A DNA stretch of 64,000 nt from Buxus sempervirens (Eukaryota > Streptophyta > Magnoliopsida > Buxales > Buxaceae): NCBI GenBank assembly GCA_947561395.2, contig OX387189.1:25234329-25298328 (forward strand), given 5' to 3'. Position 1 is the stretch's first letter; each line of letters starts with the position of its first letter. Both the position numbers and the translations under genes were made by a program. Positions 26,440 to 64,000 of the stretch are shown piece after piece. The notes below the pieces were generated by a model, which was not told the DNA's origin, made no database searches, and worked only from the letters and a program-made list of their open reading frames with translations.

Positions 26440-27431
26440 AATAAAATTAATAGAAGTTTTCATTCTTTGGTGATACCATTCTTTGATTTTGGAACATTAT
26501 GTTCTTTTACTACTCTTGCATGTGTTGGGGGTGTCGGTTTGGTGCTTTCTTTATTTGAGCTTATTTTATGGTTGCATATCCCACCAGGAAAGACTAGTAG
26601 AGCCCCAAACGGTGTATAGGTACCATGATCATATTAGGTCAATTAGATTTGCCTAATGATTTGATATGTCTGAATTTTGGGGGAGTTTGAGGTAATTCAT
26701 GTGTGCGCACCTAATTTTGCACAATGAAGCGCATGCAGGATGCGTGCCTTGGGACTATCGCAGTCGCCACTGCCTGAGAAGTTCAGGCAGACACAATGGT
26801 GCCTAACCGGGTCTAATTTTACGTCCGGGAAAGTCCGAAGACACCCCAGCCCACTCTGTCAGTTTGACAGGTCCCTCGGGCCTCCCTGGTTTTGAGTCAT
26901 TTATCTCACCCTGTCCTAATCTAGCATACATACTTTATTTGGGCTGAGTGGGAACCGTTGAAGGTGTAGGTCCCCTTAAATTGATTTTATCTTTTTATCT
27001 TCTTTTGGTTAAGTGGGTCGGTATGGGCCCCGTTGGAAGGCCCATTGGAATCCAAGTTGGGGTTAAGCCCATGGCCCAGTCAGGGTTATTGGATAACCCT
27101 TATTAGATTTGATTGTTTTGGTTTTGGGGTTAATTAAACATACAAATTAAGTGGGTTTAAGTTTTTAAGGCCCAATGGGCTTGGAATTGGCCCATGAGCA
27201 ATTAACCAAATGGCCTTGAGCCCATTTATTGAAAACGGGCTTTAGTTTGGGCCGGATTGAATGTGGGCCCGTTGGAAGGCCCACAAAACCTTGGTGGGCC
27301 CAAATGGGCACAATGTCTCAAAATGGGTTTGGGTTGACCCAAGAGCCCAACTAGTTCAGCTTGCACTGAAATGGGTCGGGTTGGGTCCAACCGGGTCAAG
27401 GAAATTGATTTTTTAATTATCTACAAAATTT

Positions 27432-27540
27432 GACCGCATATATAATGTGGATTGGGCAGAACCGCAGATTAAATGCGGTTTTGGCTTGCCTGCATATGAA
27501 ATGCGGTCGGGCCCGAACCGCACTGAGTATGCGATTCGAC
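27432..27540 (-). repeat. Downstream hairpin array of the ~3.0-kb solo LTR
   Basis: Four imperfect inverted repeats built on ACCGCAT...ATGCGGT, lying about 0.73 kb from the LTR 3' end on the minus strand. Confidence 0.8.
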
Positions 27541-28141
27541 CTAATTCTTTGAAAATGACCAAAATTTTGGTCGGGATCCGTTCGCTGGTTCCCTTGGGAT
27601 GTCCTCCGGTCCCTGTAGGCATCAGAACACTCTTGTAGTGGCTCAAATGCTCACTTTGAGCTCAAACTCCACTCTTTCATCAAACCATTCACACATGCTT
27701 TGACTCAATCAATGAATCAATGAAAGAACTAAACATACGAGGGATATGAAACACTAAATAACAGTAAATGAAGTCAGGGATCTAAAGGATTAAACAAGTT
27801 TTGAAAAATAGTTTAAAAATCTTAGAAATAACTAAGAAATGTATTAATGCTCCTTAGGAAGATAAGGTTTTGAAACCTCATGCAAATATTTATAGTGAAT
27901 AGAAATCGGTTCAAACAAATCTACAACTTTACACATAAATATGTGTGTGCTTACATGATGTTTATTAACAAGAAACATTTATGAACATCGAAATTAGTGA
28001 TGAAAATATGCTTGATGAATATGTCTTTTATAAAGTAAAAAGGAAAGTAATCAAGTTAGATCTTAGTCTTAAAAAAACTTACCCATATATGTATACAAAA
28101 CTTGTTGAAATACCCAAAAGAATAATGTACAAAGCTATATA

Positions 28142-31100
28142 TGTAAGCACCTCATTTTTTGCGCCCCTGGAAGTGCCGGAAATGCAAACCCTAGCTGGAA
28201 AGTCAAACCCTAAAGAGGCAAAAGTTGACTTTTTGATTGAGTAATAATTGATCACCTTGCTTTATCTCAGTGGATAGAGTACCCCGACTCGATTCCAACG
28301 CAACCGAGCTTGCTGAAATCGGAGTCCGAATGAAGGATTTACAGGCGGGTCAAACTTGAAGGGGAGCAGAAATTGACTTTCAGTTAAACCCCAGAACAGC
28401 TACCCAACTTGTCCCAGTGGACAGGTCATCCTGACACGATTCCAACGCAACTGAGTTTGCTCAAATCGGAGTCCCGGATAATAAGTTATGAGCAAAACAA
28501 GAAACCCTAAAAACTGCCAACGTGGCAAAAAAGCAGAGAAAGGTGTTTGGGGCAAATTCGTAAATAATCAGAACATTCAAAAATATCTGAGGGCATATCT
28601 GTAATTGCTCAAGGATGAGTCTGTAAATATCAAAAGATCATAAAATATCTAAGGGCAAAACTGTAATTATCTGGGGATAAATATTTAAATATCAAAAAGA
28701 TCTAAAAATGTCTCAGGGACCAATCTGCAATTACCAAGAAAGTCACCCCCACATGCTTAATTCCCCACCACATCTTTCTCTCCCTCTCTCTCCTCCATAA
28801 CTCATCCCCCATTCCCCACCACATCTTTTTTTTTTCTCTCTCTCTCTCCTTCATAAATTCATGTTCCCTATGCATCCCCACATGCATCAAACACATCACC
28901 CCATGCATCATGCACACATCATGCATTAATTCTCTCTCTCTCTCTCTCTCTCTCTCCCCCCCCCCCCCCCCATGAGCATCTCACCATGCATGCATCTTTC
29001 CCCCTCTCTCACTCTCTCTCCCCCCATGGGCATCCTCCATGTCTCACCACAACTCCCATGCCCCCATGCATTACCCCATGATAAAACGACTCCAAGAGCT
29101 TCCACCTTTCTCCAAGCTTCCACCCTTCTTCCCCAAGGAGAAAACTCTCTTCACTTTCACCCTTTCTTCACCCATACACCTTCACCACCCCACCTTGAGG
29201 CCTTGTAACTCTTCTTTTCTTTCTTCCCCTTCTTCCTCATCCCATCAAAAGGAAGAAAACTTGCTGTTGGTGGTGAAGGAAGCTTCAGCAGCCGTCCAAG
29301 CTTTAAGGAGGCTTCACCCACATTCTATAAGGGTTTAAAACCCCAAGGTGAGCATTCTACCATGATTTTATTTAACATATATGAGCATGACATGATTTGG
29401 AGCATGTAAAAGTTTATGTGTATCTTGTATTTGCTGGGGGGGGGGGGGGGGGGGGGTTAGTTATTATGCTCTTCCTCTCCATCTCCATCACTTTCTCACA
29501 ACACCGCAAGGTGTTGTCCCTCCAAGGTAAGATGAGTATGTCGAATGCACCAAAGGGAGCATGAGTGTGGTGTTTTTTCACATGTCTCCATGGTTTTCAG
29601 TTGCTGTTGGGTTAGGTTTCCATCTCATTTATTTAAAGGAGGAGCCTGTTCCTTCTCAGTTTTCTTTCCACTCCAATGTACCCCCATTAATCTCCTCTTT
29701 TCCCTTCATCTTGGTTTACTTTTTCCATTCGATGAGTTGTTGCTTTGGCATGATTAGTGGTTGAGAAATATGTATGTTTACATGTGCTAGCATGTCCCCC
29801 TTTACCCCTTTGGTCGTGGCTGTCTCCAGCATGTTCAATCACCCCCATTCCCCTCTAGTTTAGTTCATTAGCACCATGCATGAAGGCCCCGCTTTCCCTA
29901 CACTTCTCATGTGGTTTTCACTCTCGTTATCATGCTTAGATCTGGCCAAAATCTCTCTTATTGGCTGTTGTTCTTGACATTTGCATCATGTGTTTGTTAT
30001 GTTAAGCTAGTATGCATGCATGGTTATTTAGACTCACTGGTTGTGTGCGCTAACGTGATCCTCTTCTCCCTTTCTCGCTTGCTGATTTTTACCCTCTAGC
30101 ATGCCTATTGGTGTGCCTCCTCTCCCCAAACACAGCCCAACAACCGTATGCATGCAAGCCATCCCCCATGCCCATTTGTGCTATCCCCATGCATGATTAA
30201 GCATGTTTTCTTTTCATGTATAGTTGCTGTCCCACTTCCCTACAACAATTTTTTTCTCTGTTTTGTTGTTCTATTCATGTCATGATTGGTTCTCTTTGTC
30301 GACACACCATGTACATGCACACACCCACAACTTAGCGGCATGTTAAGTTACTCTCCACCCCTAGGTCACCATCTCCCTTCACATGAATTTGAGCATGAGT
30401 ACCCTTGCCCACATGCATGGTATATATCAAGATGTGTTTGGTGATGATTTGGATTGGATCATACTCATACCCTTGCTTACTTGCACTTTCCTGGCTTTGT
30501 TTCGGTTGCTGTTTTGATGGAATCAAGTGACCAAAACATGGACACATTGGTCCCTGTTGGGCTGCGGTAGGTGGCTCAAGTGAAAGGAGGCAACCTCCCA
30601 TGCTCCTCCCCCCTTCCTTGTAGAACCCACCAAAGGAGACCAAAGATGAGGGGATTCCCCATCTCCAGAACCTGTGTGGGCCTTCCCAGGGGCCCACGAA
30701 ACTTTAGAACCTTCCTAAGAAGCCCAGGAGCCCAGCCCTATGGGAAAAATCCAAAATTTAGCTTTCTGTTAGCTGATCCGACAACTCAGGTCGGATCAGC
30801 TGAATCTGTTGTGTAGCCGGCCTTGAAAGCCGGCTACAAGGGTGATTATGTGTAGCCGACAACTCAGGTCGGCTACACTGTTGTTAATATTGTTTGGTGC
30901 CTTTCTTGATTGTTCACCACTTTAATGCCATTGTTAACTAAACTAATCAAGTCAATAGGGTTTCCGGGTCACCCGGAAACCCAAGATGGGACCTGGAAAC
31001 CCAAGATGGGACTTGGACCACTGGTCCAACCGAATACATAGTGGGCCTTCCAACGGGGCCCACCAAGCCCAATGAACCCCTTTTACATGTAAATAAGCAA

Positions 31101-31980
31101 GATAAGCAAATTAACCAACTAAACTGAGTGGGCCAAACCTGATGCGGCCCACCCAAAAGCCCACTTTGTAGCATGATGTAATAATTAGCATGGTTTGGCC
31201 GAGACCACGGACCAGGGCCTATCAGGCCCGCCAAGCCCACTAACCAACCAAGTAAGGGTTCAAACTCTAACTCCAAAACCTTGGGCTTTCCAATCCAAGT
31301 CTGAACTACGGGCCCCAAACCCAGTGTCCAGCCCACTTTGGAACATTAAATTAAAGATGAATTAAAATACTTGGCAATACTTGTGTGGCCCACCCAGGGA
31401 CCTGCAAACCAATGCAGACCCACTTTTTGCATAAAAATCACTTAAGTCCCTAATTTGAACAATTAAAATGAAAATCAATTCATTTAAACCAAAACCCAAA
31501 GGGCCTCCCAGGTTTAGATGGAGGCCCACCAGGGGATATGTGGGCTTAACCAAGCCCACCATGGACACCAGGGGCCTTCCCACGGGGCCCACCCACTCAG
31601 ACTCAGACCACTTAATTAAGCAAGATAAAATTAACTAAAGGGACCCCACACCACTCAGGTGGTCCCACCAGACTTAACTGAATTGCATGCTGGATTAGGA
31701 ATCGAGTGAGAAACCACAGTGAATTGACTCAAACCAGGGAACCCACGGGACTCGTCATCTGACGGGGTGGACTGGGGTGTCTACGGACTTCCCCGGACCG
31801 TAACCGAGACCTTGCTTAGAATCTCAAGTCGTAGACCAGCCTAATAGATAAACCTAAGCACCCAGGTGTCTGCCTGTACCCCATCAGGTAGTGGCGACTC
31901 CAACCTTCCCGAATTACCCTTTAGGTGGCACGCACGAGAATCCGTGCGCCCCGCCGTGCCGCGCTTTTGACGCGCGCACA
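28142..31980 (+). mobile_element. Solo LTR, 3839 bp, nested in the preceding one
   Basis: It starts TGTAAGCACCTCATTTTTTGC and ends TTTTGACGCGCGCACA, with the perfect 5-bp duplication ATATA (28137-28141 and 31981-31985). It shares with the solo LTRs at 26702-33544 and 39905-42260 the start motif, the two GATTCCAACGCAAC blocks, the ACTTCCCCGGA block, and the CTGCCTG hairpin near the 3' end. It contains CT tracts, 16 C (28956-28971) and 21 G (29436-29456). No protein domains. Confidence 0.88.
30771..30877 (+). repeat. Three consecutive perfect hairpins in the nested solo LTR
   Basis: Perfect inverted repeats at 30771-30801 (12-bp stem AGCTGATCCGAC), 30813-30837 (9-bp stem GTAGCCGGC) and 30851-30877 (10-bp stem TGTAGCCGAC). 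All have 7-nt loops, AACTCAG in the first and third. Confidence 0.9.
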
Positions 31981-32687
31981 ATATACATGTATATGCCTAA
32001 TGGTATAATCATGTATATGTATGGGAAAGATATAGGAAAGCAACCGAATGAAATAATGAATCATTCATTCTACTTGAAAGGGAATAGGGGAAAGGAAATT
32101 ATGGGGTAGATGAGACAATGAAAGAGGACAAACCCCTCTTCAAATAGAGAGCAAATGAGTAAACTAAGTGATTTCCCGGAGTGGCTTAAGCCTTCCTTTT
32201 ACCTTATTTCCAATTGTCTCTTCCCAATATCACTTATGAGAGAGTCCCCGTGTCATGGGGACTCTCATAGTATGCAAGATGAGAATAAAAGAGGTTAGAG
32301 ATAAACAGTAAACACCAAGTATTTTAAGAGACAAGCTTACAATAATCTTATTTCATGGAATCTTAAAAGAAAGCCACCAAAACCTTTACCTTGGTGTTAC
32401 TTTTGTTCTTGAATATGTGGTGATCACCAAGTTGATGAGGACAGTAGCCTAAGAGGTCTCTTTTGCTCTGAAAATGACTTCCTCTTTGTCTTCCAATGGT
32501 CACAAGAGGAGAAAAGGGTAGGCTAGGATAGTTTAAGGGGTAAAATGGAAAAGAAAATAAGACTTGAAGGTGAGAATGAGGTGGAAGTGTTTACTGGTCG
32601 TGAGAAGCAGAGTGGGGATGAAGAGGGGGGCCAGCAACCTTGAGCAATCATGGCTGGGACCCCCTTTTATAGACAAAAATTCCGAAA

Positions 32688-32876
32688 CTGCACTTCGACT
32701 AAACCGCATTTCAAGTGCGGTTTAGCCTTGACCGCATTTGAAATGCGGTTGAGCCGCCCATGTCCGCAAATCTTCGCAAATCTGCCAGTTGTGGCCGAAA
32801 ATAAGATTTCAACCGCATTTGAAGTGCAGTTTGGTTTCAAGTGCAGTTTAGGCCAAACTGCACTTCAAATGCGGAC
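32688..32876 (-). repeat. Upstream hairpin array of the ~3.0-kb solo LTR
   Basis: Five or six inverted repeats of the form AACCGCATTTGAAATGCGGT (for example 32701-32723 and 32731-32750; diverged copies at 32811-32831 and 32855-32874). On the minus strand they end about 20 bp before the TATAAAAG box. Confidence 0.85.
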
Positions 32877-33709
32877 ACGCATGTTTTTAAAATGTGTCAT
32901 TTCAAACCACTTTTCCAATTTGATTTATAATTTGGATTCTGTCTAATTTTTTCAAAATTTTGATTATTTTAATATAAAAATCAAGATATTTTTTATAAAA
33001 ATATTATTTAATTCCGGATATTTATTTGCTGCTCCTTTTTCTGCTCTTTTGCCACCTGGGTAGTTTTCTGAAACTTTGATCGGCCATAAATTTTCCGTCC
33101 GATGTCCGATTTTAGCAAACTTAGTGGCATTGGAATCAGGTTGGAATTCCCTATCCACTGAGCTAAAGTTTGGTAGCAAATTCAGGCTTTTTAGCAGAAG
33201 TGCAAAACTGCTCCCCATAATCTCAGTTGCGTTGGAATCGTTGGAATCGTATTGGGATCCTCTATCCAATGGGATCAAGTTAGGCAACTGAATTGGGCTT
33301 GAGCAAAAAGTTAATTTCTACTCCCCACAAGTTTGACCAGCTCGTAACTTCTTCACCCGGACTCCGATTTCTGCAAACTCAGTTGCATCGGAATCGTACC
33401 GAAATTCTCTTTTCAATAAGAAGAAGTTTGATGGTCAATTCTCATCGGATCAAAAAGTCAATTTTTTAACCCTTCCGGGTTTGACTTTTCAATTTGAATT
33501 TTTATTTTCTGTATTTTTTGGGGTGCAAAAATCAGGTGTCTACATCATGGAATAGATTGGCTCTTAAGAACAAGTATTACTATACATGGGAGATCAAGGT
33601 AGAGATGAAGAAGAAGTATTCGGATTTGGTTATCACATCATGAAGTGGTAGCACGTAGGTGGTAACATGATGTGAATTTCGAGGACGAAATGATTTTTTA
33701 GGGGGAGAT

Positions 33710-33863
33710 TGTGAAATCCCGATCCCACATTGGAAACGGATGAATACCTGGTATGGTATAAGAGTCAGGGACAACACTTTAACTAGCGAGGCGCCTTTTG
33801 AGGATAAAACCGTGCGGGCTTAGGCCCAAAGCAGACAATACCTCGCTGGGTTGGGTCATTACA
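33710..33863 (+). repeat. Middle LTR of the small-LTR composite
   Basis: 154 bp, TGTGAAATCCCGATCCC...GGGTCATTACA, preceded by the polypurine tract TAGGGGGAGAT and followed by the tRNA-Met site TGGTATCAGAGC (33866-33877). Confidence 0.88.
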
Positions 33864-34023
33864 AATGGTATCAGAGCTGGATTCTGGTCCAGTAGTCCAT
33901 GACTCGTGTGGGTCCTGGCATTACCTGTAGGAAGTGGTTGGATTGATGAAGGCGAGCCCATGAGGGGCTAGCAGGCTTCTAGGTGGCCACTACACGGGGA
34001 CGTGCAGCCTTGTAGGGGGAGAT

Positions 34024-34177
34024 TGTGAAATCTCGATCCCACATTAGAAACGGATGAATACCCGGTATGGTATAAGAGTCAAGGAGAACACTCTAACTAG
34101 CAAGGCGCCTTTTGAGGATAAAACCGTGTGGGCTTAGGCCCAAAGCGGACAATACCTCACTGGGTTGGGTCGTTACA
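34024..34177 (+). repeat. Right LTR of the small-LTR composite
   Basis: 154 bp, TGTGAAATCTCGATCCC...GGGTCGTTACA, same length as the middle LTR and highly similar. It is preceded by TAGGGGGAGAT and followed by the GCTTG target duplication. Confidence 0.9.
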
Positions 34178-34182
34178 GCTTG

Positions 34183-34490
34183 GTCACGATTTCCTCTTGT
34201 AGATCCACATCTTGTAATATACTCATTATGTTTCGCAATTCATGGTATGTGTTATAGAAATATAACTGAAAATAACAGGGAGTTCTCTCTCCCGGTACAA
34301 ATGCAGGTAGATCATGGTATATCTTCCCTTGTGCACGGAAATTGTATACACCATTTCTTGAGTTTGCTAAATCCTTGTCCAATTTAACTCCAAATGATGT
34401 AAAAGAAAAAAATGCTATTATATGCTCGTATATGCCTTCAAAATACAAATGCATCACTTTCTTGAGAAGTAAATAAGTTATATAACTCAA
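34183..34490 (-). pseudogene. Helitron Rep N-terminal domain, part separated by the insertion
   Basis: The minus-strand frame has FTSFGVKLDKDLANSRNGVY, FRAQGKIYHDLP and YFQLYFYNTYHELRNI, signature blocks of the Helitron N-terminal domain. They sit directly upstream of the block that resumes at 25879, so the composite element split one reading frame at the GCTTG duplication. The frame upstream (about 34500-36100) is decayed. Confidence 0.85.
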
Positions 34491-34983
34491 ATGGAACTCT
34501 CTTTGTTGCTAATTTGATTTGCCCATTATAGCAACAAAAGGTAGGAGGTTCGTATTCAAACTTTTTTGCTCCATAGTAAGTACAAAATGGAACTCTCTTG
34601 AGGATATGTGTGACAGAACAAACTGGTTCATATAATAGTTCACCTATAAATAAAATAGCAAATATAAATTCATCAATGTATAGTTTACCTATGAAACAAT
34701 TAGTATGCCATGTATCTACTATTTGTTATAAGGCTAACCTGCAATTTCTTTACAAATTAACTGAGCATTGAGTAACCATCGCATTTGCCTATTGTCGCTA
34801 GATTCCGCAACATTATGTTCATTTAGGTCAAAGCTAATATGGTTCACTCTCCTTTTTCTATAGTCAATAACCCCTCGAATGTATTGTTTGCGGCCTTCTT
34901 CTGATAGGCGGGCGTATCGATTTCTTCTATAGATTCATTGTTGCGCATGTATTCTGTCTGGAACTCACATTTTATAAATATAA

Positions 34984-35052
34984 AGGCTATATGCATAAAT
35001 GTATGTGTGTGTGTTTTTTTGTTTGTGTGTGTGTGTATGTGTGTGTGTGTAT
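34984..35052. repeat. TG-rich microsatellite
   Basis: Interrupted TG/TATG repeats with a T-run in the middle; alternating purine-pyrimidine DNA. Confidence 0.8.
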
Positions 35053-35832
35053 AATATTTTGAATTAAATATATATAGTACGGGAAACAAAAAAAAATTTA
35101 AATCATTAATTAAATAACATCATAGAAGAAAATGAAGCACACCTTGATTAAAGGCCATCTGTGAAATTCTTTGTTACGAAAATATTCAAAAGTGTGACAT
35201 GTAATAGCAATTGCAACCATTAAACAAATAATTTTTATGTATTTATGATATTTTTTTCCTAAGCAATTAAAATACGAATTAAGTATTATTGTCTAAATCT
35301 TACTATATCCAAAATAAATAGTGTAATTAATATCATATTATTCTTATTTTAAGATGAAGTTAAAATGGAAACGATGGCATATTCTTAATAATTCACTAAA
35401 ACAAATTATAATAATGGGCATTATTACCATAATTGACTATTTGATTTGAAGTATAAATAAAAGAGAACATATCATTCTCACTTAAGTTAATAGGAAATTG
35501 AAAGTGCTCTATGAAAATCGCCAAATAAGATTCCCAGCTATATCATCACCCATCAAAAAATATTATAATCATAACAATAAGATTAAAAGAAATTATCAAT
35601 CTACAAATAATCAATCATATACTGGCAAAATAATATTTCTCATAGGAGGAATATTAGTAGTCATAACGTATGTTTTCTTTACAGGGGCAATTATATAAGA
35701 ATTTATTTGTCATTTGTTCATTGATTGTCTGACATCTTTACATTTATTGGAGAACTCAAAAAACTAAAGATAACCTCTTGGATCTTGCCAACATGAAGGT
35801 ACCTTCAATGATGTATGCCCATTAATCCATGT

Positions 35833-36111
35833 AATGCATTTCGATATTCAATAGCAGTCAATCCCTGTTTCTTCTAGTTTTTGGAACTTATGGGGCTCTC
35901 TAAAACTGAAAAATTATCTTCTACTTGGTCCTAGAAATGATCACCATCTTCGCACCTCATTTGTTTACGTAATGCACTTCGATATTCAATAGCAGTAAGC
36001 CTCTGCCTCTTCTGGTTTTTGGAACATTTGGGGGGTCTCTAAAATTGAAACATTATCCTCCACTTTTTCTTCGAAATGATCACCATCTTCTTGCATCATT
36101 TGTCTATTGCA
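35833..36111 (-). repeat. Tandem duplication of a Helitron N-terminal coding block
   Basis: Two copies (35833-35970 and 35971-36111), about 138 bp apart, each reading on the minus strand as a basic block followed by LTAIEYRNALHG-like residues. This motif lies near the N-terminus of plant Helitron proteins. The copies differ by many substitutions, so the duplication is old. Confidence 0.75.
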
Positions 36112-37024
36112 GCTCCTTTGTCCAACGCTTTTATTTGAAGCCACAATGAGTAATTTCATCCCAAAAGAAAGAATTAATAATTAATTAGATATTATGATTA
36201 TATTGTATTATTATTAAAACTCATATATTCTATTATTTCACTTTGTTAGTTCTCTGCTCCTTTGTGACTCAAGGCCTCTACATTTTATTCTATGTTTTTC
36301 ATTAGTAATCAATTATCAATTTGATGAAAAATTGTCGTCACTTTTTTCGTACTCTCATATGCAAAATATACTACAATCAATTAGAGCTTTGAACTTAGAA
36401 GGGCCTTTCTGAAAATTAACTATCAATCATATAGTTAAGCATTAATGATAAAAGATGAAAGGAAAAAAAAAACAAATATATAGTGTTTAATATGAATTTA
36501 AATATGTCTTAGATTGGTTATAAAATCATTTGAGACTCAATTATATTCTTCTCACTTAAGTTTGTTATGCATTTTTAATTTATGCTTCAAAACATTTTCT
36601 TTTATCTAAACCACTGCATATGGCCGTCATTTTTTATTTGCCTTAGAACGTCTCTTTAAAATTTTTAAATACTTCATTGCCTCCTTATGTAAATATTTAT
36701 GTCTTGTGCTTTTATGTCATTATGTATGTATAACATTGTACATGTCACCCATATATATATTTAAACTTGTTACAAAGTGAAAAATAATTAAGAAGACTAT
36801 ATACTACGTTATGTCGTTTCTGCAGAGATTGTAAAGTTTATTTATGATGCACGAGGAGCACCAGCATTGATGCTCTCAAAGCATCAAATATATTTTCCAA
36901 ATACTTTGTACTTCACAGACTCAGGCTGGAATTTCTGTTCTGAGAAGAAATTCATGATGAGAGAATATGAAATATTAAAAATTGCTTAACAAACATTAGA
37001 AGAGAACCGTTTCATTGTTTCACC

Positions 37025-37065
<41 letters not shown>

Positions 37066-37265
37066 ACCTTAAGTTTATAGTTGTCTTGGTTCAGATGCTT
37101 TATATTTCTATTCATGTATATTTATTTTTTATTGTACATATATAGTTCATACCAAGAATCATGGTGCGAATTGAGAAAAGGAATGACAGCATTGGGATGT
37201 TTTGTCAATGATTTGATTTTCTTGCAATCTTCTCTTCACTCAATTATATTCTTTAGATACTATTT

Positions 37266-37638
37266 CACATTGACATTTATTTAGGATCATTCAATCGAAT
37301 GCATCACAAAAGGAGAAGAGCAGGATAACAATCAATGCTTCAGAAGTAACAGTCTTATTACTGTCTAAGGAAAGGTATTCACTCATTTGTAATCTTTCAC
37401 ATTGACATTTATTTAGTATCATTCAATCAAATGCATCACAAGAGGAGTAGAACAGGATAACAATTGATGCTTCAGAAGTAACTGTCTTCTTACTGTCTAA
37501 GGAAAGGTCTTCACTCATTTATACTCTTTCACATTGACATTTATTTAGGATCATTCAATCGAATGCATCACAAAAGGAGAAAAGCAGGATAACAATCGAT
37601 GCTTAAGAAGTAACAGTCTTCTTACTGTCTAAGGAAAG
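37266..37638. repeat. Three tandem copies of a 132-bp unit
   Basis: Units begin CACATTGACATTTATTTAG at 37266, 37398 and 37530, an exact 132-bp spacing. The third copy stops at CTGTCTAAGGAAAGG. They sit in the Helitron 5' region, with a CT tract at 37029-37062 nearby. Confidence 0.92.
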
Positions 37639-37934
37639 GACCTTATCAATTTATAAATATCACAATCCTCAGAATAAAGGACCTCTTAACCTTCTTTACA
37701 TTGAGGAAGATGGGGTAATTATTGTGGTTCGTCACTTCTGATTAAATCTAATGGAGTGATTTTTTTTTGTTTGACCCCTCACAAGATCACACGTTTGAGT
37801 TTATAAGGAAGGTTTCTGAATCATCTGAGTAAATACTAATGATATCTGATTGGTTTCTGTTTTAGGAATGCTGTTAACTTAGATATCCACCAACTATTTT
37901 AACCATATAGGACAGCCAAAACCCTAAGGATATT

Positions 37935-37954
37935 CCCCTATATAATAGTATAGA
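37935..37954 (-). repeat. Second Helitron-like 5' terminus
   Basis: The minus strand reads A then TCTATACTATTATATAGGGG, a canonical plant Helitron 5' start. It lies 881 bp inside the outer 5' start at 38835. Confidence 0.7.
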
Positions 37955-39124
37955 TAATTATAAACATTAATCTATAAATATTAATGAAATTAATGAGGTA
38001 TGGAGGAGTCACAGGTGACAAACTTCGATTAAGGCCATTGCTTTATGGGAAAATTTACCTTGAGACGAAGCCAATTACGTTGAACCCCAATTATGGACAC
38101 GTTTAGTGGTATTATGTCAGCATTACTCACATGATATCCATGGCATTAATGGACGTAATTCAATCGGGCTTGATTGGATTTTGTAGTCAAACAAAAATCA
38201 AGGGGAAGTAAACTAAGAGGCTGTTTCGTAACCATTTTGAAAACAGTTTTCCAATTTGGAAATATCTAGATATTTTGTACTGGTTTCACATAAAAGAGAC
38301 TATAAGAACGGAAAATAAAGATTTGAAAGAAACCAGATAAGAAGTGAAATAATTGTAGTGGAATAGTAAACGTCTAGATATATGTTTTCGTTCCAACTAA
38401 AGTAACATGATAAACATGGAAAACTTAACTTAAGATTCAGAAGAAGACAAAGGTAAATGGCAAAATTTATCGTTAAAGAAAGGAAAAAAACAAATAGTGC
38501 ATTCATTAGAGCAAGGAAACTCATAAGGTTGATCAATTTCTATCCAATATGGGATGATCTTTATCCAATTTGGGACGATGCAATGTGTCTGTCTAACAAT
38601 TTCCAAGCGAGTCTCTATCCAATCTCGACAAGGGTGTGTCTTACAATAGATAGTTTCACTTTCAGAAGTATATAGTTGTATTCAGAAGGAGATAATGGTT
38701 GGAAGAAGACAATGGTTAGGAAACGGTTGGGGATGCTGGGGGCATTAGAAGAAATACATAAATAGAGAAGGGTATTTTAGGGAAGTAAAAGTGGACAAAC
38801 ATTGAGGGCCTTCGTGCTTTTTATAGTAGTAAAGATAAATATTGTTTTAATTGGTAAGTTATGTATGCAAGCAACTGAAGAATGATGAAAAGCATGGAAA
38901 CCACCTTTGGGTGGATAAGTGGGGTGCCTAACACCTTCCCCTACTCATAACCTAACTCCTTACCTTGAAATCTAGTATAGACCTTAAGTTGAGCCAACTT
39001 TAGCTTATTTTTATGATCTTTGCACACTTTGATGACAATCCACATCAAGAATCCTTGGATGGTGATGATTCCAATTTTAATCTAAGTCTCGTGTGAGATG
39101 CATGGCAGTCCAAAGATCGCGTGG

Positions 39125-39505
39125 TTTTACAGGTGGTGGGCGGTGGTGGGCAATGATGATGGGGATGGTGGTGGTGGTGGTGGGATGGTTGTGGGCCATG
39201 ACGGGGTGGTAGCAATGGTGGCGTTAGTGGGCTAACGAGCAATGGCAGGTAGTGATGGTGTTGGGTAGTGGGGGTGTTGGTGGTGGTAGTGAGCATTGGT
39301 AGGGTGGTTGTGGTGTGTGATGGGGGCAGTCGGGGTGGTGGCAGGAGTGGCAGTGGTGACACAGTGGATTGTGGTAGTGGTGGGTGCTAGTAATGGTGGC
39401 ATTGGTGGGGGGATAGTAGTGGTGGTGGGTGGTTGTAGGAGTGGTAGTGTTGGGTTGTGGCGGTGGTGGGGTGGGTGGGGGTGTGAGTAGTGGTAAGTGA
39501 TGGTA
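39125..39505. repeat. G-rich GGTGGT/GTGGTAG minisatellite
   Basis: About 380 bp of irregular TGG/GTGGTG repeats. The end (GGGGTGGGTGGGGG near 39465-39480) could form quadruplexes. The proline/histidine-rich open frames on the opposite strand are by-products of this composition. Confidence 0.9.
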
Positions 39506-39899
39506 AAGTTTCTTTTCTTTCAAAAATCTCTACGTTTTTTGAGAGAATTTTTTACATTAGAGAGAAAGAGGAAGAGAAAATCTCACTTTCCTTCGTTTTA
39601 ACTAAACGAGAAAAAAGAAAATTTTAGTATTTTCTTTTCTTTTCTCCCCAAATGCAAGATTCCAAACACATCCATAATGAAGTTGAGTCAAACTGTTAAA
39701 AGAGACAAGTCATGGTCTGACTGGCTGGTCCAGTTTGCTTTATAAAACGTTGATTTCAATTACTTTGTGCCCTTTAGGCACTTAAAATATGGGGAGCCAT
39801 TCCTATAAGATATTTAGTCCTCCCATTGTAAACAGATGTATCCTTGAATATGTTTAGGAATTTTAAATTTAAGGGAATGTTTTCCAATTCAAGGATATG
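39506..39899. other. Spacer, nothing recognised
   Basis: Purine-rich then AT-rich sequence between the minisatellite and the third solo LTR, without a supported gene. Confidence 0.5.
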
Positions 39900-40448
39900 T
39901 GTACTGTTAGCACCTGATTTTTGCACCCCTAAAATGAAGAAAAATGAAAAGTCAAACCCTGAGGGGGTAAAAAAATTGACTTTTTGATTCAAGTGAATTT
40001 GGCCTTCAAACTTCATCTCATTGAAAAGAGCCCTTCGACACAATTCCAACGCAACTGAATTTACTAGAATTGGAGTCCGGATGAGGAAATTATGAACCGG
40101 TCAAACTTTTGGGGAGCGAAAGTTGACTTTTTGGTCGAGCCCAATGCAGCTGCCCAAATTGATCCCAGTGGATAGTGGGTTCCAAGCCGATTCCAACGAC
40201 ACCAAGTTTGTTGAAATCGAACACCGGATGAAAAAGTTATGAGCAGTTGAAATTTTAGAAAAACTGCCCATGTGGCAAAAACAGCTGCAAAAAGCCAAAT
40301 AAATTGATAAAATAAATAAAAAACATTTAATAAAAGATATTTTAATATTTTAATATAGTAATGATGAAGAATCTTAAGATTTTTTAATAAAATCTTTAAA
40401 TAAGTCAAATTTAACAAAAATTTTCAAATCCAACATTTTAAAAACGTG

Positions 40449-40615
40449 CTTGACCGTATTTACTATACGATCAAGGCTTCTAGAAGGGGACACGCGTCGC
40501 TGTACGGAGGGACACGCGTCCCGTACGGAGGATTCATACGGGATTCGCGCACGAAGGCGGCGCGACCGTATTTGAAGTATGGTCGTGCCTTGACCGTATT
40601 TAATATACGGTCACG
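40449..40615 (+). repeat. Upstream hairpin array of the third solo LTR
   Basis: Inverted repeats of the form GACCGTATTT...AATACGGTC at 40451-40473, 40563-40584 and 40591-40613. The last ends about 14 bp before the TATAAATA box. Confidence 0.88.
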
Positions 40616-40626
40616 GATTTTTTGCC

Positions 40627-40634
40627 TATAAATA
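40627..40634 (+). promoter_or_regulatory. TATA box of the third solo LTR
   Basis: TATAAATA directly downstream of the hairpin array; likely LTR core promoter. Confidence 0.6.
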
Positions 40635-41406
40635 GGAAGCTTGTCCCCTCCATTTCAACAACCTGGTCCCCCCATCCACTCTCTCTCTCCTTCTTTGTCA
40701 TCTCGACGCCCAAACTCTGCCCAAGTTCTGTCACTTTCAATACCAAACCCCGAAATACCCAAAATACCCTTGGATTGCACCATTCCCCTTTACATTTTCA
40801 TCCCTTTTCAACCCCGAAGTGAGGAATCCCTTTTCCATTCCATTTCCGGAACTTAACGGAAGTGCGAAAGCGCTGCCGAAATCACCAGGAGAACCGCTAC
40901 ACATCAAAAGTAGAAGGTAACAGCAAAAGTGTGCTCCTGGTAACATTGTGTTTGATATACATTAAATTTGACTTTTTATGATTTAATTTATTTACTACCT
41001 GTTCCTCACCTTATTTATTCTGTTTTGCATGGATTTGGTCTCCCCATAATGAGGGGGAGAACTTACTTGACGGGAGGAGAGTAAAATGAGGAAATACAAA
41101 ATGCAAATTAACATAGTCCTATAATACATTGGCTAAAGTCATTTCTTTCATCTATCAAGGAGGGGACTGTCCTCCCAAAATTTCTGATGTATCCCATGCT
41201 TTCCCCTCTTTAGATTGGCTGCAGGTGGTTAAAATAAAGCCTTCATTTTTTAAGAATGCCAAAGAGAAGAAAAGAGGCATTTTGAGCCAAATGAAGTAAA
41301 CATGACACTGTGAAGAAGCTGAGAACTCCAACAAAAGTCACCGAATCCCCTTAAGCAACTAGATGGAGCAATCCCGGTCGGAATTTTAGCAAAATTCAAA
41401 AATCAA

Positions 41407-41520
41407 ACAATGCACGTATTTGCTATACGGTCTAAGCATGCCCGTATTCGCTATACGGTCTGGTCTGAACCGTATTGCATTTATGGTCTAAACCAAACCG
41501 TATAGAAAATATGGTCATTT
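41407..41520 (+). repeat. Downstream hairpin array of the third solo LTR
   Basis: Four inverted repeats of the CCGTATT...ATACGGT type in about 110 bp, ending about 0.74 kb before the LTR end and using the same stem as the upstream array. Confidence 0.88.
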
Positions 41521-42160
41521 GATAAAATCACTTAAAAATGTAATTTTTTTGACCCGGTTGGACTCAATCCGACCCGAGCCAATTTGACCCGACCCAATAA
41601 AGTTATATGGGCTATTCTTAGCCCACTTATGGATCATGGGCCTAACCAGGCCCCCAAGGCATCCCGGACCCACATATGGGGCCCACACTTTGACCGGCCC
41701 AAATCAGGCCCGTTTTCAACAAACGGGCCCAAGGCCACTTGTTTAAATACTATTGGGCTAAATCCAAGCCCAGTAGGCTTTAATACTGTTTAATTGCTTA
41801 AATAAACAAAACAAACCAAAAAGGGTTACCCAATAACCCTACTGGGCCCAAGCCCAATCTTGGCACCTTGCAGGCCTTCCAACGGGGCCTGTACCCGACC
41901 CACCTCACTTAAATGAAAAGATAAAAAAAATGAAATAAAAGGGGCCCACACTTTCAGAGGACCCCGCCAGATCCAAGAAGAGGCATGCTGGTCTAGGAAA
42001 GGGTGAAATTTGACTCGAAAACCAGGGAGACCCAAGGGACCCGTCAAACCAATGAGGCAGGCCGGGGTGTCTTCGGACTTCCCCGAACGTAACTGAGGAC
42101 TTAGCTAGACCTCTAATAAGCCGCAGACTAGACTTAGACCCGGATAGGCAATTCCCGTGT

Positions 42161-42191
42161 CTGCCTGCACCTCTCAGGCAGTGGAGACTCC
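42161..42191 (+). repeat. Conserved CTGCCTG hairpin plus TGG(C/A)GACTCC box
   Basis: Stem CTGCCTG/CAGGCAG (42161-42167, 42175-42181) followed immediately by TGGAGACTCC. Equivalents occur at 31870-31901 (plus) and 26790-26760 (minus) in the other two solo LTRs. Confidence 0.85.
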
Positions 42192-42265
42192 GAAAGTCCC
42201 AAGGCACGCACGAACTCCCACGTGCGCCCCGTGTGCGATCTAGATTTTTAGGTGCGCACATGTAC

Positions 42266-62990: not shown

Positions 62991-64000
62991 AGAGATTATG
63001 TATAACATATTATAATAAATAATAACATTATAATATAATATATTCTGTTATATGATATATAATTGATAATACAATGTTAAGTTATATTACATGTTATATA
63101 AATATTATTATAATAATAGTATACATTATTATATTATATATAATAAATTAAAATTTCAATATAATGTACATTATAAATTATTATTATTATTATAATATAT
63201 TATTTTAATAACAACAAATTATAATATAACTTATATTACATTATAAATTTTATTATATTATTATTATTATATTATATTATATTATTATAATAAACATATT
63301 ATTACATCATAAAATATAATAAATTTAATATATTATAATATATTGTAATAATTTAATATTATAATATATATATATATATTATATTTAATATAATAATATT
63401 GTATAAATTATAATATAACTTTTATTAGAATTTATGTTATAATAAACATTAATTATATTGTAGTATTATTATAATAATATTATATTATTATATAATAATC
63501 TGAAACATATTAATATATTACATATTTTAAACAAATTAATATATTGATATTAATAGTATTATATTGTTACAATAAACATATTATAATAATATTATATACA
63601 TATATATTTAATATAATAATATTCAAATTTAATATATTATATTAATATTGACATAATTATATATATAAATATATTTAACAAATTTAATATTATAATATAT
63701 TAAATTTAGTGTCACAATAAATTTATTATAATATTATATATAATACACATAAAGTTTGAGTTATAATAAACATAAATTATATTATTATAAAATTATATAT
63801 TATAATAAGTTATAATATAATATACATAATATTTTATTATTATATTATTATAATATTATATTATAAATTATAATACTATTATAACTATTATATGTATTAT
63901 GTAATATTTACAAATTCATATGATATTATAATAATAATATATAATATTATAATATAATATATATTATTATAATATTATTAAAATAATAGTAGTGTTGTTG
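62991..64000. repeat. About 1 kb of nearly pure A/T (TATAATATTA-type)
   Basis: Almost no G or C in irregular TAATATA/TTATTATA repeats, continuing to the window edge. It is probably an AT-rich core expanded inside or beside the preceding MITE. Confidence 0.85.

Follow-up and report, generated by a model that had tools for sequence, protein, structure and literature searches.

Solo LTRs and dyad arrays in the window

We analyzed a 64,000-nt stretch of the Buxus sempervirens genome (hereafter the window; contig OX387189.1, positions 25,234,329 to 25,298,328 of the forward strand), which sits in a 676.5-Mb assembly (GCA_947561395.2). It contains three solo long terminal repeats (LTRs), called A, B and C here, each ending in TG...CA and flanked by a perfect 5-bp target site duplication (TSD). 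A first interpretation made from the letters of the window (the sequence-only reading) had described clusters of inverted repeats, or hairpins, in A and B, and a downstream cluster in C. These clusters are real, and the observation is stronger than stated, since each "hairpin" is a 17-bp dyad, CCG-N11-CGG, and the dyads are arranged at a fixed pitch in regular arrays, one upstream of the TATA box (U) and one of up to four dyads downstream of it (D). As argued below, the arrays are probably read as DNA by a dimeric factor that recognizes specific sequences, with a specificity that varies from one LTR family to another. The features, in window positions, are the following.

39905..42260, + strand: solo LTR A; TSD TGTAC at 39900-39904 and 42261-42265; limits read from the sequence; genomic relatives found
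40454..40470, + strand: distal U dyad of LTR A, CCG-N11-CGG with one CGG mutated; centre at LTR position 558, from dyad scoring
40566..40610, + strand: proximal U array of LTR A, two dyads 28 bp apart; ends 16 bp before TATAAA (40627)
41414..41514, + strand: D array of LTR A, four dyads at 28-bp pitch, partly decayed; centres 41422, 41450, 41478 and 41506; 8 half-sites; the dyad at 41442 exact
41710..41726, + strand: extra single dyad of LTR A, GGCCCGTTTTCAACAAACGGGCC, with N11 spacing as in the arrays; from pattern search and dyad scoring
26702..33544, - strand: solo LTR B, interrupted by LTR C; TSD TCATG at 26697-26701 and 33545-33549; limits read from the sequence; genomic relatives found
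32704..32874, - strand: U array of LTR B; proximal dyads 32704-32720 and 32732-32748 (28-bp pitch); TATAAA begins at 32671
Centres about 32821 and 32866, - strand: distal dyads of the LTR B U array; the 32866 dyad read from the sequence
27434..27534, - strand: D array of LTR B, four dyads at 28-bp pitch, partly decayed; centres about 27526, 27498, 27470 and 27442; the dyad at 27462 exact
27222..27238, - strand: extra single dyad of LTR B, counterpart of 41710-41726 in LTR A; from dyad scoring
28142..31980, + strand: solo LTR C, nested in LTR B; TSD ATATA at 28137-28141 and 31981-31985; limits read from the sequence; genomic relatives found
30778..30872, + strand: D array of LTR C, three dyads at 39-bp pitch; starts 30778, 30817 and 30856; arms of ~10 bp, 7-nt centres

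The stems are those first noted for each element, namely ACCGCAT in LTR B, GACCGTAT in LTR A and GTAGCCGAC/GTAGCCGGC in LTR C, and for the nested LTR C only a downstream cluster had been described. A U cluster was not found in the window copy of LTR C by dyad scoring or pattern search. The extra N11 dyad lies ~0.2 kb past the D array in both LTR A and LTR B.

To score dyads, pairs at offsets 4-11 from a centre were counted together with CCG/CGG identity, centres were kept at a score of at least 11 of 14, and 200 first-order Markov shuffles per LTR served as the null. By this measure LTRs A, B and C hold 7, 8 and 3 centres, with shuffle means of 0.30, 0.19 and 0.33 and maxima of 3, 2 and 3. The seven centres of LTR A comprise four array dyads, two inter-dyad centres and the separate downstream dyad; the eight of LTR B comprise five array dyads, one inter-dyad centre, an unrelated GGGCCCAC palindrome and the separate downstream dyad. 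The count for LTR C alone equals its shuffle maximum, and the strength of this case is in its perfect arms, exact 39-bp pitch and relatives.

Geometry, layout and abundance of the arrays

The geometry was established on 68 loci (8 A-, 30 B- and 30 C-related, window copies counted in). The spacing CCG-Nk-CGG peaks at k = 11, with 37 cases in A, 63 in B and 95 in C; apart from the array harmonic at k = 39 (19 in A, 40 in B), every other k from 0 to 40 stays at or below 12, 29 and 27, respectively. CGG-N11-CCG is found between the dyads in A and B, and the half-sites alternate in orientation. With exact CCG-N11-CGG sites aligned on their centres (offsets 6-8 then pair necessarily), pairing at offsets 4 and 5 ranges from 0.66 to 0.97 across the five sets, and C dyads remain above 0.8 out to offset 13. 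The dyad centres (offsets 1-2, exact dyads) are not palindromic in D (0.04-0.31) but are so in U (0.84-0.93). Position by position, 85-98% of half-sites retain the CCG bases, although the filter applied beforehand favours CCG.

The pitch is also regular. Neighbouring dyads are 28 bp apart in 24/45 intervals of A U, 31/43 of A D, 12/34 of B U and 37/42 of B D, and 39 bp apart in 62 of the 73 intervals of C D; the remaining U intervals are partly the step from the distal to the proximal sub-cluster, and the B U set contains windows that were dropped later. In the fullest copies U consists of a distal pair, a step of ~80-120 bp, and then at least two proximal dyads ending ~15 bp before the TATA box, and older copies hold fewer recognizable dyads. 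The best-ordered example is the LTR of locus L110, 5' of a well-kept gag (an equal-score copy of this gag lies 11.7 kb away), with U dyads at 656, 684 / 794, 822 and 850, the TATA box at 883, and D dyads at 1665, 1693, 1720 and 1747 (steps of 28, 27 and 27). These are nine exact dyads, five in U and four in D; a further pattern match lies at 2292.

U usually ends ~15 bp before the TATA box. A last CGG and a TATAAA could both be located in 22 of 44 copies, and the gap between them is 13-17 bp in 16 of these and 21-33 bp in 6. The downstream cluster, placed at about 0.73 kb from the LTR 3' end, ends 746 bp (A) and 732 bp (B) from it; this distance fails for C because its D array ends about 1.1 kb from the LTR 3' end. 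For seven copies the U windows were set aside in the folding, dyad-scoring/TATA, U/D-coupling and TTCTAGAA counts, as another LTR or other sequence lies there (L014, L018, L022), no LTR sequence is there (L024, L033) or no U is recognizable (L081, L089). The TTCTAGAA counts concern a separate motif, at 40478-40485 between the distal and proximal U dyads of LTR A, which is present in the U window of 12/19 A copies vs 1/25 B copies and which we take to resemble a heat-shock element.

The pattern is abundant genome-wide. A count over both strands, to which a single array contributes several times, gave 57,177 occurrences of CCG-N11-CGG-N11-CCG, compared with 690 for the same-letter control CCG-N10-CGG-N12-CCG and with 5,101 and 4,919 for the backward versions of the two patterns. 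The B-type dyad CCGCA-N7-TGCGG has 8,453 places vs 50 backward, and the C-type CCGAC-N7-GTCGG 8,623 vs 217. On contig C1, the first 100 places listed correspond to 83 dyads in 37 clusters, a sample from which the exact pattern loses older copies; the gaps between neighbouring clusters include 827-959 bp in 5/36 and 110-111 bp in 2/36, as in the U/D layout. The same contig carries a further class of four-dyad arrays with steps near 28 bp and half-sites of its own (CCGTATTTCATTCACGG and others) at 3398534-3398633, 3409085-3409184 and 3436216-3436315, with no partner cluster ~0.9 kb away among the matches listed.

A concerted base switch in both arrays

The D arrays of A and B align site by site when copies with at least three D dyads are used (17/21 A and 14/30 B copies). 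In this alignment offsets -5 and +5 differ between A and B in all four D dyads, and at each of the remaining offsets the number of differing dyads is 0-2; offset 5 is T:A in A and C:G in B in all eight half-sites. By their outer bases, dyads 2-4 are the same sites in A and B (diagonal matches of 9/10, 7/10 and 8/10, off-diagonal ones no higher than 5), whereas dyad 1 (2/10) and the centres give no site identity. The U half-sites repeat the switch: at -5, 79% of those in A have T and 73% of those in B have C (percentages that precede removal of the seven set-aside U windows). Where both arrays are usable, in 33 copies, the state at -5 is T/T in 16, C/C in 15 and mixed in 2, and one A copy, L073, has C at -5 in both U (6/6) and D (5/6).

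The sequence-only reading had claimed that the distant clusters change together and had asked whether upstream and downstream stems correlate. Between families the coupling is clear. Within A the coupling is partial: at -9 (rho 0.61, n=19) four copies are A/A, ten C/C and five have C in U with A in D, the reverse being absent. Within B it is undetectable. A C-type relative on contig C1 (9.736-9.738 Mb) extends the likeness to the third family: its three U dyads, TGTATCCGACAT...ATGYCGGATACA, have a 39-bp pitch and end 15 bp before TATAAA, and its D array has CCGAC half-sites at the same 39-bp pitch, so that half-site and pitch are both common to U and D. This copy also has what looks like a decayed distal U pair.

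Could neutral processes have produced these patterns, slippage or conversion spreading the copies and cytosine deamination accounting for the C/T difference? The recognizable dyad number does vary between copies, and C:G to T:A is the most frequent change in methylated repeats. Conversion-type homogenization is nevertheless unlikely because the outer bases of dyads 2-4, dyad 1 being the exception, retain site identity while offset 5 differs in 8/8 half-sites. U and D, moreover, lie ~0.9 kb apart in different contexts, and the mutable CCG is retained at the frequencies given above. We therefore regard homogenization or mutation bias as a very improbable account of the arrays.

Covariation and RNA folding

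Stem covariation, a check that the sequence-only reading had proposed, was measured on 28 D arrays of C-related copies (the 30 minus L066 and L068, which have no array; some rows have no fourth dyad). In these arrays 88.1% of cells are paired, against 20-37% when slid, and 28 cells are two-sided vs 10.6 in shuffled data (0/500 shuffles as high), with the relatedness of the copies uncontrolled. In a separate count of array cells that depart from Watson-Crick pairing, 127 are G.U and 180 are A.C, with no bias toward sense-RNA pairing.

This last comparison bears on two explanations at the RNA level. In the first, the arrays would be transcript stem-loops that are processed to small RNAs or recognized by silencing, as proposed for maize Sirevirus palindromes, and those palindromes are small-RNA hotspots according to the portions of PMC5311732 and PMC10760457 used here. 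On the sense strand the mean minimum-free-energy (MFE) z-scores are -3.1 to -5.8 (12 copies per set). Hairpins would leave room for G.U pairs, however, and G.U cells do not outnumber A.C cells; nor would hairpins require sites within one element to share sequence beyond self-complementarity, or a CCG-N11-CGG that is constant across families; in addition, the U symmetry reaches offsets 1-2, which a hairpin loop cannot use. We consider the hairpin explanation rather unlikely. Another suggestion in the sequence-only reading, a structure that avoids sequence-based silencing, found no support in this analysis.

In the second, the genomic RNA would carry U at its 3' end and D in its 5' leader, and the two would pair with each other or dimerize, for circularization, strand transfer or packaging. 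The half-sites shared by U and D fit such a role, and both arrays would be in the genomic RNA if transcription starts past the TATA box. The absence of a wobble bias speaks against it, and the exact 28- or 39-bp pitch and the 15-bp distance to the TATA box have no obvious RNA reason. We hold a replication role to be highly improbable.

Element class and coding content

Fourteen of the 68 loci share sequence among themselves from the LTR 3' end onward, and in these 14 TGGCGACTCCRCTGGGGA adjoins the LTR (exact in 4/14, with 1-4 mismatches in 10/14). We take TGGCGACTCCRCTGGGGA for the primer-binding site (PBS), which we assign tentatively to tRNA-Arg and to Ogre/Tat elements; the placement in the Tat/Ogre lineage rests on this assignment and is likewise tentative. 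A gag piece taken from one gag-bearing copy has a match to Retrotrans_gag (PF03732, E=3.8e-11) and a weak one, under the cut-off, to Ty3_capsid. The PBS in 14 loci and the gag match to PF03732 together identify the window LTRs as Ty3/gypsy type. The features on which we call the window elements solo LTRs were all found, namely TG...CA ends, 5-bp TSDs and, beside 5' LTR copies, the PBS.

In the examined pieces of two gag-bearing copies, pol was not seen and the open frames outside gag are short; six of these short frames, when scanned, gave no Pfam family above its cut-off. The two copies look non-autonomous. A profile search with PF17919 (reverse transcriptase/RNase H) gave at least 150 places, which we do not connect with the LTRs. 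In the gag-only copies at L070 and L111, tandem repeats lie between gag and the 3' LTR, with a unit judged from repeated frames to be ~169 bp; in our view they resemble the variable 3' part of Ogre elements.

The plant mobile domain (PMD) was tried as a candidate factor and is not supported: the genome has at least 117 PMD matches, and among the matches listed only 2/154 typed LTR positions lie within 25 kb of one. Several PMD matches form same-strand pairs separated by ~3.4 kb, in many cases of equal score (for example 42315242/42318696 on contig C4 and 33187484/33190929 on C9), and probably represent another transposon family. Among the matches listed, LTR and PMD places are on contigs C1, C3, C4, C6, C8-C12, C14, C15, C19, C21 and C22 only, with none on C2, C5, C7, C13, C16-C18 or C20. 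Elsewhere in the window, its right end (63102-63980) carries AT-rich tandem and inverted repeats.

A dimeric factor as the probable reader of the arrays

Each dyad consists of two half-sites in inverted orientation, whose nearly invariant CCGs stand a fixed distance apart and are flanked on either side by family-specific bases. Fixed spacing, a constant CCG core, symmetric differences in every site and adjacency to the TATA box are what a two-fold-symmetric dimer would be expected to impose. Most likely, the arrays are occupied by a dimeric protein that recognizes specific DNA sequences and regulates the LTR promoter, either as an activator or as a keeper of the open LTR; D would be a second platform for the same protein, and a change in its specificity would have driven the concerted switch. 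The sequence-only reading had suggested paired recognition sites for an element-specific factor, and the part about recognition sites agrees with the fixed half-site geometry, the symmetric concerted changes and the same difference in both clusters; that the factor is specific to, or encoded by, the element would be a further supposition.

Several results weigh against protein-binding sites, or at least weaken the case. First, two of the five covariation measures are weaker than those above, as pairs with two-sided change number 13 vs 8.6 (18/500 shuffles as high) and further pair types 41 vs 37.4 (50/500). Second, the array columns of B are not unusually conserved (identity 0.86 in arms vs 0.87 outside), and CpG retention in B is 0.60 in arms vs 0.64 outside; the corresponding C values are 0.79 vs 0.63, and CpG retention was accordingly not used as a sign of selection. 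Third, RNA of either strand folds well over the arrays (mean z -3 to -6). Fourth, within A the U/D coupling is seen only at -9, where 5/19 copies are mixed, and within B the two arrays are uncorrelated (rho -0.17 and -0.08, n=14). The copies are related, yet the tests treat them as independent, so the A-vs-B contrast is nearer one or two events than 33. Fifth, the 3'-flank control is unclean: 22 exact CCG-N11-CGG sites in the flanks reach a pairing of 0.73 at offsets 4-5, which may reflect other LTRs located there, and 164 flank sites with one mismatch allowed pair at 0.38-0.40. Finally, in the 83 dyads of the C1 sample pairing beats every shuffle at offset 5 only (0.71 vs 0.58), and not at offsets 1-4.

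If the dimeric factor exists, a member of a host transcription-factor family seems more likely than an element-encoded protein, since the CCG core does not vary here and is also a mark of the Sirevirus boxes described below; the class-specific differences, for their part, favour an evolving partner. Lateral-organ-boundaries proteins were considered as host candidates and set aside, as the literature searched gave nothing usable.

An evolving partner could be encoded by autonomous relatives of the elements and co-evolve with its motif as VANC does with VANDAL, unsilencing its own LTR class only, a variant of the dimeric-factor reading that we hold to be unlikely. It would account for families of one genome whose half-sites and pitch diverge under a conserved layout, and the available portions of PMC5735166 describe a precedent in VANC, whose element-specific motifs change together. 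Ogre and Retand elements are described as often bearing extra open reading frames with a plant mobile domain or Transposase_28. On the other side stand the short frames outside gag in the pieces of the two apparently non-autonomous copies, six of them without a Pfam match above the cut-off, the PMD matches listed, which are not beside LTRs, and the CCG core shared with Sirevirus boxes, which points to a host factor.

Taken further, and only as a tentative proposal, the LTR families may be recognition classes, each read by its own element-encoded dimer that frees only its class from silencing, a VANC-like lock-and-key in Ty3/gypsy elements. Each class would then have two arrays of fixed architecture, a change in specificity would rewrite every half-site in both of them symmetrically, and gag-only elements would be passengers that copy the key-hole.

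Relation to known systems

The sequence-only reading knew of no described system that matches, which was wrong. The RM boxes of Sirevirus LTRs are a close parallel: in the portions of Bousios et al. 2010 (PMC2829016) on which we draw, they are palindromic, with a CGG-CCG core, present in at least eight copies per element upstream of the TATA box and element-specific in sequence. The signature CGG/CCG is found in 12/13 elements of Table 3 there, and GACCG/CGGTC half-sites, as in LTR A, in 3/13. RM boxes are reported in these portions to be Sirevirus-specific among the Ty1/copia elements compared and absent from the classic elements.

The differences are as follows. First, Sireviruses are Ty1/copia elements with another PBS and polypurine tract; their PBS is TATCAGAGC, compared with TGGCGACTCCRCTGGGGA here, and the gag match to PF03732 sets the Buxus elements, of Ty3/gypsy type, outside Sirevirus. 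Second, the RM half-sites face the opposite way with a short centre (CGG-CCG), in contrast to CCG-N11-CGG, and the consulted portions of PMC2829016 report no fixed N11 geometry or 28/39-bp pitch. Third, the extra RM copies described there lie before ENV, whereas here the second cluster is in the LTR, downstream of the promoter. As to copy number, where RM boxes number at least eight clustered upstream of the TATA box, five of the nine exact dyads of L110 lie upstream of it.

The Ogre, Retand and Tat (OTA) group of Ty3/gypsy elements is closer in class. By the tentative assignment above, these elements share the PBS TGGCGACTCCRCTGGGGA after the LTR; they differ in that pol was not seen here in the examined pieces of two copies. 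The consulted parts of PMC6317226 and PMC11963269 describe Retrotrans_gag, long non-coding regions and tandem repeats in OTA elements, as here, and make no mention of palindromic LTR arrays. Open-licence literature, searched by titles and abstract openings, gave no description of such arrays in Ogre/Tat or other gypsy LTRs. The Ty3/gypsy setting, the fixed geometry, the second cluster and the coordinated switch are new here.

VANDAL, unlike the elements studied here, is a DNA transposon. VANC/VANDAL resembles the present case, in the accessible portions of PMC5735166, in its element-specific short motifs, which form dense non-coding arrays and evolve together between families. It differs in that its motif, YAGTATTAY, is in a single orientation and not a dyad, whereas the half-sites here alternate, and in that its protein is element-encoded and demonstrated (PMC5735166, same portions).

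Palindromes in Sirevirus LTR promoters are known, but whether they are protein sites or hairpins is not settled in the Sirevirus sources, as far as consulted. In the present arrays a single spacing and two pitches hold over thousands of copies, and with such strict geometry and concerted base differences sequence-specific recognition is directly testable, the natural variants A, B, C and L073 serving as ready-made specificity variants. An element-encoded factor would add to VANC another example of lock-and-key control among plant transposons, whereas a host protein would be the driver behind a very large family of LTRs.

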